NCBI GenBank assembly: GCA_913009205.1
Contig: CAJVYC010000007.1
Location: 62,001 to 126,000 of the forward strand
Direction: 5' to 3'
From: an uncultured Fluviicola sp.
Lineage (GTDB): Bacteria; Bacteroidota; Bacteroidia; Flavobacteriales_D; Crocinitomicaceae
Length of the DNA: 64,000 bases
Part shown: positions 13,496 to 20,714 of the stretch, piece by piece
Layout: the number at the start of each line of letters is the position of its first letter
Position numbering within the stretch: position 1 is the first letter of the stretch
Translations under genes and position numbers: made by a program
The notes under the pieces: generated by a model
Seen by the model: only the letters and a program-made list of their open reading frames with translations
Told to the model about the DNA's origin: nothing
The model's database searches: none

Positions 13496-15340
13496 ATGAG
13501 GAATTTAATTAAATTATTACCAGACAATATTGCGAATCAAATAGCCGCTGGGGAGGTTATTCAACGTCCCGCTTCTGTGGTGAAAGAAATTGTTGAAAAT
13601 TCTATTGATGCCGGCGCAACGAAGATTGACGTCAATATAAAAGATGCTGGAAAAACGCTCATTCAAATTGTAGACAACGGTCAAGGAATGGGACCTGAGG
13701 ACGCTGAGATTTGTTTTCAGCGCCATGCGACGAGTAAAGTTAGTAAAGCCGAAGATTTATTCGCTTTAATAACAAAAGGATTTAGGGGTGAAGCTCTGGC
13801 ATCTGTGGCCGCTATCGCTCACGTTGAATTAAAAACAAGAGAAAGAGGAAAGGACATTGGAACTTCAGTCACAATGGAAGGGAGTTCAATTAAAGAATCA
13901 ACTGAAACAACATGCCCAGAGGGCACAAGCTTCGAAATAAAGAACCTTTTTTACAACGTTCCAGCCAGAAGAAATTTCTTAAAATCTGACAAGGTAGAGT
14001 TTGGACATATCACGGATGAGTTTGAACGCGTAGCCCTATCACATCCTGAGATTCATTTCACGTTACATCACAATGACAATGAACTTTACAACCTTCAAGA
14101 CACGATTTTAAAGAAACGAATCATTGATGTCCTAGGAAAAAAATCAAGCGATCGATTGGTTCCAATTGAGGAAAGCACTGAAATCGTTGAAATGAAGGGA
14201 TTCGTTCTCAAACCAGAGTTTTCTCGAAAAACACGCGGTGATCAATTCTTATTTGTAAACAACAGATATTTCAAAAGCCATTACTTCAATCACGCTGTTA
14301 ACAAGGCATTTGAGGGACTTATCAAAGAAAGAACCTTTCCAGGATTCTTCTTGTATTTGGATGTTGATCCCAAACGAATTGATGTTAACGTTCATCCAAC
14401 GAAAACGGAAATTAAATTCGAAGAAGAAAAATACATTTACTCCATCATATTGAGTAGCATTCGCCTAGCACTTGGTAAATACAACATTGCTCCAACACTG
14501 GACTTTGAAAGAGAAATGGGATTTGACATTCCGCACAAAATGCATTCTCAGCCCGCAACAGAGCCCACAATAAATATCAACAAGGACTTTAATCCTTTTC
14601 AAACGACATCGAATACGGCGAGTTCTTCTAGCGGAAAAACAACTGAAAACTTCTCTAAGGCGATTGTCAACAATGGCTTTGGAACAAAGGAGGCGAAACA
14701 AGAGGATTGGGAGAACTTTTACACAGTTGAAGATCAAAAGGAAGAAGAGGTTCAAGAGCTTGTAGAAGTTGAGTCAATTGATGAAAATATTACGAGTTTT
14801 ATTGTAAAAGGAAACTACATTTTATCTCCAAGTAAGTCTGGATTAATGGTGATTCATTCAAAAAGAGCAGTTGAACAAATAGTTTACTCAGGAATAATTA
14901 AATCATTTATTTCCAGCCCCATAGAATCTCAAAAAATGCTATTTCCAATCGAAAAAGAACTTTCAAAAAAGGAAATCATTAATTGGGAAATGAATGCGTC
15001 AATGCTAAAGCAATTGGGCTTTGACGGAACAGTTGAAAGCGACATATTGTCTGTCAGCGCGGTTCCAAATGTACTCGAAGAAGAAACACTGTCAAGCACT
15101 TTAGATTCTATCCTAGAAACGCTTGGACACAAGGATATTGAAAAGGGCGATATTGCGCATTCATTGGTGGCTTCTATTGCAAGATCAGCTGCAATGAAAC
15201 AATTGAATCTTAATTCAAATGAAGCGATTCAAGGTTTGATCAATCAACTGTTCCAATGTGAAAATCACATTTACACGCCTTCGAACAAAAAAATTATAGA
15301 TACCATCGATTTAGAGTCGATTGAAACAAAATTTAAATAA
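13496..15340 (+). CDS. mutL: DNA mismatch repair endonuclease MutL
   Basis: LLPDNIANQIAAGEVIQRPASVVKEIVENSIDAGA; GFRGEALASVAAIAHVE; FVNNRYFKS. Confidence 0.98.
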   Translation: MRNLIKLLPDNIANQIAAGEVIQRPASVVKEIVENSIDAGATKIDVNIKDAGKTLIQIVDNGQGMGPEDAEICFQRHATSKVSKAEDLFALITKGFRGEALASVAAIAHVELKTRERGKDIGTSVTMEGSSIKESTETTCPEGTSFEIKNLFYNVPARRNFLKSDKVEFGHITDEFERVALSHPEIHFTLHHNDNELYNLQDTILKKRIIDVLGKKSSDRLVPIEESTEIVEMKGFVLKPEFSRKTRGDQFLFVNNRYFKSHYFNHAVNKAFEGLIKERTFPGFFLYLDVDPKRIDVNVHPTKTEIKFEEEKYIYSIILSSIRLALGKYNIAPTLDFEREMGFDIPHKMHSQPATEPTININKDFNPFQTTSNTASSSSGKTTENFSKAIVNNGFGTKEAKQEDWENFYTVEDQKEEEVQELVEVESIDENITSFIVKGNYILSPSKSGLMVIHSKRAVEQIVYSGIIKSFISSPIESQKMLFPIEKELSKKEIINWEMNASMLKQLGFDGTVESDILSVSAVPNVLEEETLSSTLDSILETLGHKDIEKGDIAHSLVASIARSAAMKQLNLNSNEAIQGLINQLFQCENHIYTPSNKKIIDTIDLESIETKFK

Positions 15341-16149
15341 TGTTTAGACAAATCTTTTCAAATATACCTGACGTTACAAAGAATCTTTTGCTAATAAACA
15401 TTCTCTTATTTATAGTGTCTTTGTTTCTTGCTCAATCTGGCTCTGGATTAGAAAACATACTTGAAGCGCATTATATCAACTCAACTTTTTTCCAACCCTA
15501 TCAGGCAGTTACTCATATGTTCATGCATAGTTTAACGGATCCGTTTCATATCATATTCAATATGTTTCTACTTGTTTCTTTTGGTAGTCATCTAGAGAGA
15601 ATCTGGGGAAGCAAAAGATATTTCATTTACTACATATCTTGTGGACTTGGGGCCTTCATTCTGTATAATGTAATCGGCGTATGGGAAATCTGGGAACTTC
15701 AAACTGAACTTAAAGCAGCCGGAAACGACATTCAATACATTAATCGTTTAATCCATGATGGTAAACTTGTTTCTGGCTCACAATTAAACCTAAAAGTTAT
15801 AAATGAATTAATCAATGCTGGGGAACTGAAACTTCCAAATGAGGTACACGATTCATTTAGAAAATATATTGCATATAACTATAGTAGTTTGGTTGGTGCA
15901 TCTGGCGCAGTCTTTGGTCTTTTAGCAGGTTTTGCAATGCTTTTCCCAAATACTGAATTAAATTTGATGTTCATTCCCGTTCCTATAAAAGCAAAATACT
16001 TAATTGGTGCCTACTTAGCATTTGAAGTCTACAGCAGTATTTATAATTCCAATGATCAGATTGCTCATTTGGCCCATGTAGGAGGGGCGATTGTAGGGAT
16101 AATATTTATTTTGTTTTGGCGCAGAAAAGACAGAGCTAACTTTTATTAA
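15340..16149 (+). CDS. Rhomboid family intramembrane serine protease
   Basis: GASGAVFGLLAGF, IAHLAHVGGAIVGI. Confidence 0.92.
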   Translation: MFRQIFSNIPDVTKNLLLINILLFIVSLFLAQSGSGLENILEAHYINSTFFQPYQAVTHMFMHSLTDPFHIIFNMFLLVSFGSHLERIWGSKRYFIYYISCGLGAFILYNVIGVWEIWELQTELKAAGNDIQYINRLIHDGKLVSGSQLNLKVINELINAGELKLPNEVHDSFRKYIAYNYSSLVGASGAVFGLLAGFAMLFPNTELNLMFIPVPIKAKYLIGAYLAFEVYSSIYNSNDQIAHLAHVGGAIVGIIFILFWRRKDRANFY

Positions 16150-16155
16150 CCGAGA

Positions 16156-17052
16156 ATGCAGACACAAAGAACATTTATAGACGATTTAAAGCACCGCTAT
16201 AAGCATGGCGGAGCGCACATGAAGCTAATCTTCATTAATGTCATTCTATTTTTATTAATAAGAGTTGCATTAGTATTTGGCAAACTTTTGGAGGACGACG
16301 CGAACACAGAAATAGTTCTTCAATACATTTTTGGACTTTTCACCAGACCTTCTGAATTCATAACACATCCATGGGGAATATTCACATCGATGTTCGCACA
16401 TTTTGGGGCAATGCACTTATTGTTCAATATGATCTTCCTGTATTTTGCAGGAAAGCACTTTGAGCAACTATTCGGAGCTTCAAGATTGATTTACACTTAT
16501 TTAATGGCTGGTATTGCAGGCGGTTTGTTAGAGTTTTTAGCACATTTGGCATTCCCTGGCCTTCAAGACGTAGTAGTCATGGGTGCATCCGGCTCAATCA
16601 TGGGAATCTTCGTCGCAATTGCCTTCTATCAGCCAAATTTAGAAATCAGCTTTTTTGGATTTTTCAAACTTCGAATCATTTGGATTGCAGCAGCCTACAT
16701 TGTTTTGGATGTCATCAATTTAACAACAAATGATGGCACAGCTCATTTCGCTCATTTAGGCGGTGCAATTATAGGTGCGTTGTCCATTCAAAACATCCAC
16801 AGTACAAGTAACCTTATTACTGCCTCTCAAAGAATGATCGAATTTATAAGACAAATGTTTTCAAGACACAAACGTCCAAAACTAAAAATCGTCAGAGGTG
16901 AGCAAGTGCGTAAAATGACGGATGAAGAATACAATGAGAATGCTAAAGAGCGGCAAAAAGAGACGGATAGAATTTTAGATAAAATTTCGAAGTCCGGATA
17001 TGATTCTTTGAGTAAAAGGGAAAAAGATTTTCTGTTCAATCAAAGCAAATAA
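16156..17052 (+). CDS. Rhomboid family intramembrane serine protease (second copy)
   Basis: MGASGSIMGIFVAIAF, AHFAHLGGAIIGAL. Confidence 0.92.
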   Translation: MQTQRTFIDDLKHRYKHGGAHMKLIFINVILFLLIRVALVFGKLLEDDANTEIVLQYIFGLFTRPSEFITHPWGIFTSMFAHFGAMHLLFNMIFLYFAGKHFEQLFGASRLIYTYLMAGIAGGLLEFLAHLAFPGLQDVVVMGASGSIMGIFVAIAFYQPNLEISFFGFFKLRIIWIAAAYIVLDVINLTTNDGTAHFAHLGGAIIGALSIQNIHSTSNLITASQRMIEFIRQMFSRHKRPKLKIVRGEQVRKMTDEEYNENAKERQKETDRILDKISKSGYDSLSKREKDFLFNQSK

Positions 17053-18167
17053 TGAAACGGCTTAAGAAGATATTTACACTTAAAAATATCCTTAAAGGGA
17101 TTACTATCATTATTTCATTAAACCTACTCCTCTCCTACCTATGCCCATTTATACGGCCTGATTCTTGGGAAATCATTGCGCTTTTCGGATTGGCATATCC
17201 CGTTATTATTGTTTGCCACCTAATCATTACAATTATTTGGATATTCATCAATAAGAAATGGGCCCTAGGACTCGGAATTATTATTCTACTCGGAGGAAAC
17301 CTACATTTCCGAACCTTTACGATAGGCGGAGGGGATGATTCAAATGGAGCTGCCGAAGTAAAAATCATGAGTTACAACGTCCACCTGTTTGACCTTTACA
17401 ACTCCGATCCAGAACAAGCGCACCGAAACAAGGATAAAATAATACAATATGTAGCGAATGAAAATCCAGACATCGTTTGTTTTCAAGAGTTCTTTCATCA
17501 AGACCGACCCAGTGATTTTGTAACGAAGGACACACTCATTCAATTGTTAGAAACAAAAGATTATCACGAGCGCTACACGCAATACAAAAAAGGAAAAAGG
17601 AATTTTGGAATTAGCATTTTTTCGAAATATGAGATCATTGAAAAAGGAGACATTGTTTTTCCCGACAACCAACCGACATTCAATTATTGCATCTACGCCG
17701 ATATTGTAACTCCTAAGGATACGGTTAGAGTATACAACATCCATTTGCAGTCCATTCGATTGCAGAAAATGGACTATGCTATCTTCGATGACAAAACTAA
17801 AAAGAAAAATTCTTCAGGTTTCTTTTTGGTTTTAGGAAAAGTAAAAAAAGCATTTCCTGTTCGAGCAAATCAAACCGACAAGCTCGTTGAGCACATCAAT
17901 AACTCTCCGCACCCGGTTGTCGTTTGCGGCGATTTCAATGACACTCCGATGTCATACACATACAATCAATTCAATTCTGTATTAACGGATGCGTTCAGAA
18001 ATTCCAGTTTTGGAATTGGAAAAACCTACGCAGGGAAAATTCCAGCAGGAAGAATCGACTATATCTTCCATTCTGATCAAATTGGGTCAAATAACTTTGT
18101 GATTCAAGACGAGAACTTAAGCGATCACTACGCGATTAGTTGTTCAATCTTCAAAAAAACAGAATAA
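17052..18167 (+). CDS. Endonuclease/exonuclease/phosphatase family protein, membrane-anchored
   Basis: MSYNVHLFDLY, VCFQEF, VVCGDFNDTPMS, GRIDYIFHS, SDHYAI. Confidence 0.9.
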   Translation: MKRLKKIFTLKNILKGITIIISLNLLLSYLCPFIRPDSWEIIALFGLAYPVIIVCHLIITIIWIFINKKWALGLGIIILLGGNLHFRTFTIGGGDDSNGAAEVKIMSYNVHLFDLYNSDPEQAHRNKDKIIQYVANENPDIVCFQEFFHQDRPSDFVTKDTLIQLLETKDYHERYTQYKKGKRNFGISIFSKYEIIEKGDIVFPDNQPTFNYCIYADIVTPKDTVRVYNIHLQSIRLQKMDYAIFDDKTKKKNSSGFFLVLGKVKKAFPVRANQTDKLVEHINNSPHPVVVCGDFNDTPMSYTYNQFNSVLTDAFRNSSFGIGKTYAGKIPAGRIDYIFHSDQIGSNNFVIQDENLSDHYAISCSIFKKTE

Positions 18168-18184: not shown

Positions 18185-18802
18185 ATGTTAGTCGAAATTA
18201 ACGATGCAAATATAAACCAGCGGTTTATTGATCAAGCGGTGAAAGCACTGAAAAAAGGAGGAGTAATAATATTCCCTACCGATTCGGTTTACGCTATGGG
18301 GTGTAGTTTAAATGATAAGAAAGCACTGAATAAATTGGCGGCACTCAAAGGGGTTAAGCTCAAGAAAACAAATTTCTCAATAATTTGTTCGGACATCAGC
18401 AATTTATCTGATTACGTTAAACACATAGACCGTCCTACTTTCAAGATGTTGAACAGATCGTTACCAGGACCATTTACATTCATTCTAACGGCCACAAACG
18501 AAATCCCTAAGATCTTCGATACAAATCGAAAAGAAATAGGAATTAGAATCCCTGACAACAATACAATCCGAACAATCGTTGAACAATTAGGAAACCCTAT
18601 TGCGACAACCTCTTTGCACGATAATGAAGATGAAATTTTGGACTACTTCATTGATCCATACGAGATTTACGAACGCTACGATAGCAAAGTCGATTTGATT
18701 ATTGACGGCGGGTTCGGAAGTTTGGAACCCTCAACCGTTGTGAAATGCACCGAAGGATATTGCGAAATAATCCGTCAAGGCGCAGGAGAAATTGATCTAT
18801 GA
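18185..18802 (+). CDS. L-threonylcarbamoyladenylate synthase (Sua5/YciO/YrdC)
   Basis: GGVIIFPTDSVYAMGCSLND, LPGPFTFILTAT, EIGIRIPDN; ATG at 18185 preferred. Confidence 0.92.
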   Translation: MLVEINDANINQRFIDQAVKALKKGGVIIFPTDSVYAMGCSLNDKKALNKLAALKGVKLKKTNFSIICSDISNLSDYVKHIDRPTFKMLNRSLPGPFTFILTATNEIPKIFDTNRKEIGIRIPDNNTIRTIVEQLGNPIATTSLHDNEDEILDYFIDPYEIYERYDSKVDLIIDGGFGSLEPSTVVKCTEGYCEIIRQGAGEIDL

Positions 18803-19371
18803 TACTTTTAATCGATTGCGGATCTGACACAACAACTAACATCGCTCACATCATTTATGATTACTGCGATGTCAAGACAATTCCCCTACTCGATCTCAAC
18901 AAAGACAAGGACCTCGAAGAAATTCAAGGCATCATTCTTTCAAGTGGATCATTATTGTTAACTGAAATTGACCCTGACAAATACTTAGATCAACTCGAAT
19001 GGGTTACGGAAACCGAACTCCCCGTTTTAGGAATTAATTTGGGACACGTTCTCATAGGTCTGTTGTTTGGAGGGTACGTTTCTCGCGCTCGCGATAACGT
19101 TGACTGGCAAACCATTGAAGCCTACGAAGATTGCATTCTTTTCAACCGTCTTCCCAATGAAATTGAAATGAGAGAAAACAGCAGCGAAACTGTTTCTATC
19201 GCTCCTGGATTTCAACTTGTAGCTTCGTCAGATGGCTGCGTCAACGAAATCATGCAGCACAAAGAAAAAGCAATATTCGGAGTTCAATTCCACCCAGAAA
19301 TTTCAGGCAACCATGGAAGTATTCTCATTGAGAACTTTGTAAATCATTGTATTCGCCCTTCTTATCATTAG
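18799..19371 (+). CDS. Class I glutamine amidotransferase-like protein lacking the nucleophilic Cys
   Basis: VLGINLGHVLIG in place of G-x-C-x-G-H-Q; FGVQFHPEIS retained; ATGA overlap with the upstream gene. Confidence 0.8.
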   Translation: MILLIDCGSDTTTNIAHIIYDYCDVKTIPLLDLNKDKDLEEIQGIILSSGSLLLTEIDPDKYLDQLEWVTETELPVLGINLGHVLIGLLFGGYVSRARDNVDWQTIEAYEDCILFNRLPNEIEMRENSSETVSIAPGFQLVASSDGCVNEIMQHKEKAIFGVQFHPEISGNHGSILIENFVNHCIRPSYH

Positions 19372-19436: not shown

Positions 19437-20714
19437 ATGGTTTTAAATCGCATTTGGATCGGAATGTTTTTAGTCTCAGGAGTCGTTGCGCTTTGTAAAT
19501 TGATTTTTTGGCAGGATACATTCATTTTTGATGATATGGTCAAAAGCTTATTCGATTCCTCGGTTGTAGGTTTTGAAGTAGCAATTGGACTTACAGGTAT
19601 GCTTTGCCTTTGGATCGGAATCTTACGCATTGGCGAACATGGCGGGGCAGTAAAGTCAATGACTAAAGCAGTTTCTCCTTTATTCTCTCGCCTGTTTCCA
19701 GGAGTACCAAAAGACCATCCGGCAGTTGGTTCGATGATGATGAACTTTAGCGCAAACATGCTAGGACTGGATAATGCGGCAACTCCAATGGGACTGAAAG
19801 CAATGGCAGAACTGCAAACATTAAACCCTGAAAAGAACAAAGCCACTGATGCTCAAATAATGTTCCTTGTTCTTAACACTTCGGGATTAACATTAATTCC
19901 AGTATCTGTATTCGGACTATTGACAACCAACAGTTTTGAAGATCCAACAGTAATTTTCTTACCGATTCTAATCTCAACGTATATAGCATCACTCATTGGA
20001 CTAATTGTCGTTTCCATTAAACAAAAAATAAATCTATTCAATCCAGTAGTCCTCGCCTACCTAGGTACGGCTACCCTCTTTGTATGTGGACTTTTGGTTT
20101 ATGTTATTTACAACCCTTCGCATGCAGAAGTTATTGCGAGAGTTGGTGGCCCGCTGATTATTTTTACGATAATCATCACATTTATTATGATGGCGATTAA
20201 GAAGCGTGTGAATGTATACGATTCATTTGTGGATGGCGCTAAAGAAGGATTTCAAGTTGCAATTTCTATAATCCCTTATTTGATTGTGATTCTTGCAGCA
20301 ATAGCAGTGCTTAGAGGCTCAGGAACCTTGGATGCAATCTTAGATGGAATTCGAGCAACAGCTGAGTTTATAGGCATAGCAGCCACGCACTGGGTTGATG
20401 CTATGCCAGTTGGCTTAATGAAACCGCTCAGTGGCGGTGGTGCTCGTGGTGCTTTACAAGACATAATTACCCAACATGACCACCATGGTCCATATCAAGA
20501 GCTTTATGAATCTGGAAAAAAGATTCCAATGTCATTTGTAACAAAAATTGGATCTACAATGCAAGGCAGCACAGAAACGACCTTCTTTGTTTTAGCTGTT
20601 TATTTTGGATCGGTTGGAATAACAAAAACAAGATATGCTGTGACTGCAGGACTATTGGCTGATTTGGGTGGAATCATAGCTGCAATTATTGTTTCATATA
20701 TATTCTTTGGGTAA
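19437..20714 (+). CDS. Nucleoside-recognition domain protein (fused SpmA/SpmB-like)
   Basis: FSANMLGLDNAATPMGLKAM (SpmA) and QGSTETTFFVLAVYFGSVGITKTRYAV (SpmB). Confidence 0.88.
   Translation: MVLNRIWIGMFLVSGVVALCKLIFWQDTFIFDDMVKSLFDSSVVGFEVAIGLTGMLCLWIGILRIGEHGGAVKSMTKAVSPLFSRLFPGVPKDHPAVGSMMMNFSANMLGLDNAATPMGLKAMAELQTLNPEKNKATDAQIMFLVLNTSGLTLIPVSVFGLLTTNSFEDPTVIFLPILISTYIASLIGLIVVSIKQKINLFNPVVLAYLGTATLFVCGLLVYVIYNPSHAEVIARVGGPLIIFTIIITFIMMAIKKRVNVYDSFVDGAKEGFQVAISIIPYLIVILAAIAVLRGSGTLDAILDGIRATAEFIGIAATHWVDAMPVGLMKPLSGGGARGALQDIITQHDHHGPYQELYESGKKIPMSFVTKIGSTMQGSTETTFFVLAVYFGSVGITKTRYAVTAGLLADLGGIIAAIIVSYIFFG

Follow-up and report, generated by a model that had tools for sequence, protein, structure and literature searches.

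The window analysed here, a 64,000-nucleotide stretch of an uncultured Fluviicola sp. genome (contig CAJVYC010000007.1), carries a short class I GATase gene between yciO and a gene for a Gate-domain membrane protein. The features of the locus are:

17052..18167, + strand: endonuclease/exonuclease/phosphatase (EEP)-family protein, upstream neighbour in many relatives (Pfam, locus comparison)
18185..18802, + strand: yciO, 205 aa, PF01300, YciO-type and not TsaC/Sua5 (Pfam, E. coli YciO match, motif)
18799..18802, + strand: ATGA start/stop overlap of 4 bases between yciO and the GATase gene
18799..19371, + strand: GuaA-type class I GATase homologue without the catalytic Cys, 190 aa (Pfam, solved relatives, fold search)
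18940..18951, + strand: S48-S49-G50-S51, degenerate oxyanion loop (family: SGAP)
19036..19038, + strand: Asn80, codon AAT, at the nucleophile position (GINLGH, family GICFGHQ)
19174..19188, + strand: E126-N-S-S-E130, degenerate pocket loop (family: EDHCE)
19288..19299, + strand: F164-H165-P166-E167, His and Glu retained (sequence, alignment)
19437..20714, + strand: Gate-domain membrane protein (nucleoside-recognition / SpmA-SpmB-like), conserved downstream neighbour (Pfam, locus comparison)

Further upstream, at 15340-17052, mutL and the EEP-family gene are separated by two adjacent membrane protein genes, an arrangement that recurs in relatives; both are apparently rhomboid-like, as judged by reading the sequence alone.

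By sequence and by predicted fold, the window protein is a genuine class I GATase, with a match far beyond chance. Its reading frame starts with ATG and has no internal stop, residues 3-182 match the whole PF00117 domain (8.7e-24), and its best solved relatives are archaeal GMP synthase subunits A (4e-23). The fold predicted from four sequences (pLDDT 72.5, pTM 0.78), a moderate model in which pocket loops 94-105 and 121-131 are unreliable, is most similar, among PDB entries, to the M. jannaschii GMP synthetase GATase subunit (TM 0.78, Foldseek 1.7e-13). The protein scores 97.7 bits against the GMP synthase subunit A model NF001975, far under the cut-off of 198, and, given that the same genome carries a separate full-length GuaA of 518 aa, it is unlikely to be the genome's GMP synthase GATase. 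No second family member or active replacement paralogue was found in the genome; its other GATase matches, which share only 27-28% identity with the window protein, are a TrpG/PabA-like protein and the full-length GuaA.

The active site is where the protein departs from its relatives. As the first-pass annotation had read them, the Cys of the G-x-C-x-G elbow is replaced by Asn80, the oxyanion segment is SSGS and the His-Glu pair (H165, E167) is intact, with the minor correction that the family motif at the oxyanion segment is SGAP and not SGGP. That annotation had also asked whether a nearby Cys could substitute for the nucleophile. This can be ruled out, since each Cys in the window protein has a counterpart at the corresponding position of L005, a sister that still bears the catalytic Cys. 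With the nucleophile lost and no replacement Cys, ordinary glutaminase activity would not be expected of this sequence, in agreement with the initial prediction.

The upstream gene had been taken for a Sua5-family member, an assignment that does not hold. Its product (P0002) matches E. coli YciO over residues 6-203 with 151 bits (2.8e-43), as opposed to 39 bits for E. coli TsaC, and reads TTSLHDNE in place of STSAN, without the SxN motif of TsaC/Sua5; the genome's real TsaC, bearing STSANISG, is encoded on another contig (G000:C1). The neighbour is YciO, of the same family as the E. coli protein, and a TsaC/Sua5 identity is ruled out. YciO is an unsolved paralogue of TsaC/Sua5 with an in vitro TC-AMP activity more than four orders of magnitude under that of TsaC, and it has been proposed that a partner is missing or that the substrate is another one (PMC12506659). 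A link between the YciO family and a GATase was not found in the literature searched, and searches for Sua5 with a GATase in Bacteroidetes and for Crocinitomicaceae GATases returned nothing.

Orthologues of the GATase are found in 31 of the 34 genomes of the genus and in 116 of the 299 genomes of the order, a distribution that covers part of one order (Crocinitomicaceae and some other related families). Outside the window's own family, a phylum-wide profile search retrieved only full-length GuaA-sized frames, and 29 further yciO loci from other parts of the phylum have no adjacent GATase. Among 133 aligned orthologues, 115 keep Cys, His and Glu and represent the free-standing GuaA-type GATase with a complete site; the remaining 18 are dead. 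Their nucleophile and His positions hold Asn and His in the window and G003 (two species), Ser and Gln in G025, G020 and G017, Gly and Leu or Ile in 12 species of at least three genera, and Tyr and His in one species, with Glu167 retained in all 18. The GINLGH motif itself, whose conservation the first-pass annotation had singled out as a check, is limited to the two species with Asn. The lone Tyr species, L105 (G160), belongs to a Cys-bearing genus and keeps the rest of the pocket intact, and its Tyr may reflect either an inactivation that happened very recently or a fault in the assembly.

For the window gene, a sequencing or assembly error, or a mutation private to one strain, might be suspected because the genomes are drafts, probably metagenome-assembled. 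However, Asn at this position, likewise encoded by AAT, recurs together with the pocket substitutions in an independent assembly of another species, whose protein is 84% identical, and the Asn shared by L004 and L033 rules this explanation out for practical purposes.

The family tree has four nucleophile changes, with long stem branches for the Ser and Gly lineages. A MutL tree, taken to approximate the species tree, places the Cys-bearing G026 (63% identity) as the sister of the window pair with support 100/99.9 and rejects a joint Asn+Ser clade (p = 0.00075). The GATase tree by itself has too little power to settle the matter, and a single origin of Asn and Ser is not rejected there (p = 0.21). 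By the MutL result, and given vertical inheritance and no regain of Cys, the Asn and Ser losses are independent. A close relative with the Cys does exist, as the initial refuting scenario had envisaged, but the loss is not strain-specific as that scenario supposed, having been repeated in other lineages; judged from these alignments and trees, it is not ancestral either.

The dead copies are under strong constraint. Pairwise maximum-likelihood omega, a rough value here with dS near saturation in the dead pairs, is 0.029 between the window gene and L004 (dN 0.08, dS about 2.8; LRT 188 against omega = 1; no stop or frameshift), 0.02-0.04 in pairs of the Ser lineage, 0.009-0.018 in the Gly pairs tested and 0.03 between the Tyr member and its Cys relatives. 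Omega = 1 is excluded by wide margins in the dead pairs (LRT 170-264), whose omega is on a par with that of most Cys-bearing pairs. One could still imagine a gene decaying toward loss and open by chance, since several genera have no GATase between yciO and the Gate gene, showing that genomes can do without it, and since the Ser and Gly stems are long. Set against the divergence of the window pair with an undamaged frame, and against a Gly clade of 12 species with still lower omega in the pairs tested, decay appears very improbable. The earlier view of an intact gene, overlapping its upstream neighbour by ATGA, arranged for co-expression and not decaying, is upheld, and the window GATase combines the loss of a catalytic residue, common to species, with purifying selection, as pseudoenzymes do.

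Which positions changed is informative. Beside Cys80 to Asn, the pocket of the window lineage has changed at K11, G49, P51, F81, Q84, R101, D127 and H128. Of 38 positions near-invariant in Cys members, 10 are lost in the Asn, 9 in the Ser and 15 in the Gly lineage; the losses are enriched at the active site, and seven of them, K11, G49, P51, C80, F81, R101 and D127 (the last only partly in Gly), are common to all three, an overlap reached in none of 200,000 random draws. At the same time, 22 positions have been preserved throughout the four dead lineages. This pattern points to a glutamine pocket that is relaxed in a GATase otherwise held by selection. It also bears on the idea that the window protein has kept an enzymatic activity of an altered kind, for instance using His165, Glu167 and water on another substrate. 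The retention of both residues in the window lineage, and of Glu167 in every dead member, would fit such an activity, but the other two older dead lineages lost the His as well, and the pocket residues differ between dead lineages, a pattern suggestive of a relaxed pocket rather than of a new active site. We consider this improbable.

The typical gene order in the family is yciO, GATase, Gate-domain membrane protein. The yciO gene lies directly upstream in 78 of the 133 loci, with the exact 4-base overlap in 47 of these, and a Gate-domain gene lies near the GATase in 82, including 16 of the 18 dead loci; the downstream gene is a neighbour as conserved as yciO. The proposed coupling to the upstream gene persists across much of the family but is not exclusive, the Gate gene being linked as often. 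About 25 genomes of genus g24 (e.g. G060, G079, G084) carry a Cys-intact GATase and no YciO-level gene, the YciO search there giving no match or only matches of 1e-13 to 1e-16, taken to be TsaC; 28 Cys loci have neither neighbour within the stretch examined. Neither partner is obligatory, given these genomes and loci. Almost all other genomes of the order do have YciO, unlike these GATase-bearing g24 genomes. Of 20 loci lacking this GATase, 10 have yciO adjoining the Gate gene, and nothing in the space between the two genes matches a GATase. YciO from GATase-bearing genomes is hardly distinguishable in sequence from YciO of genomes that lack the GATase, and a search for YciO residues marking GATase-positive genomes found only trivial differences. 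YciO is thus not visibly dependent on the GATase, and its role as an obligate partner is not supported. In two genomes of genus g26 (L189, L190), the gene immediately after yciO is a full-length guaA, the family most closely related to this GATase; distant GATase copies had been suspected in that genus and turned out to be these guaA genes.

Could the partner then be the Gate-domain protein and not YciO, with the GATase fold as a cytosolic regulatory or substrate-handling subunit of a transporter-like protein? Its proximity to the GATase, above all beside the dead copies, speaks for this, as does its presence where yciO is elsewhere, in all but one locus of the dead Gly-type clade and in several loci of another family. 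On the other hand, a group of related genera keeps yciO-GATase with no Gate gene nearby, a gap of 65 bases and no overlap separates the two genes in the window, and yciO and the Gate gene remain adjacent where the GATase is absent. The Gate-gene tree within the genus moreover conflicts strongly with MutL, as if the gene had been horizontally replaced inside an otherwise conserved operon. In that tree, which this conflict made unsuitable as a species tree, the three Ser-lineage species fall in three places. We regard a partnership with the Gate protein instead of YciO as a serious minority possibility.

A further reading, which we hold to be rather unlikely, makes the GATase family the missing YciO partner. 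Active members would supply glutamine-derived ammonia to a YrdC-domain reaction giving a carbamoyl-adenylate-type product, or regulate it, and dead members would only scaffold or regulate, with free ammonia as the nitrogen source. If true, the CPS II to CPS I transition would have been replayed several times on a different enzyme.

Taken together, these results favour, with a probability of about 0.68, a window gene that encodes a selectively maintained, recurrently inactivated pseudo-glutaminase with a non-catalytic role, most likely as a subunit, regulatory, structural or scaffolding, of a partner encoded in the operon (YciO or the Gate membrane protein). Where most family members have a complete Cys-His-Glu site, the window lineage has exchanged Cys80 for Asn and altered the surrounding pocket while its other conserved positions stayed under strong purifying selection, and at least three other lineages have undergone the same inactivation. 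From recurrent loss under strong selection, we infer that a second family function is kept, needing neither glutamine hydrolysis nor, probably, glutamine binding. The GATase fold would dock on its partner, whose identity we infer from operon context, and this partner would use free ammonia or need none, much as in the case of the dead CPS1 GATase domain on an ammonia-using synthetase.

A single-copy protein that is under selection and has lost its catalytic site again and again, in parallel, amounts to a natural experiment, showing that the family has a function separable from glutamine hydrolysis. The operon with YciO makes this GATase family a concrete candidate for the suggested missing partner (PMC12506659), and the occurrence of active and dead versions in close relatives offers a ready-made comparison.

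Among known systems, the GATase of GMP synthase (archaeal GMPS subunit A or the GuaA N-terminal domain) resembles the window protein in fold, length, closest sequence relatives and His/Glu, and differs from it in having the catalytic Cys; the window protein falls below the subunit A cut-off, is linked to yciO and the Gate gene, and coexists with a separate GuaA. Inactive GATases are already known, and the closest working analogue is the GATase domain (S2) of human CPS1, a class I GATase in which Ser294 replaces the nucleophile Cys and which is retained on an ammonia-using enzyme (PMC4655335). By contrast with CPS1, a single fused polypeptide, the window GATase is free-standing, has a putative partner, and belongs to a family with four parallel losses; a single-copy, free-standing family inactivated four times, with a link to the YciO puzzle, is what appears unusual here.
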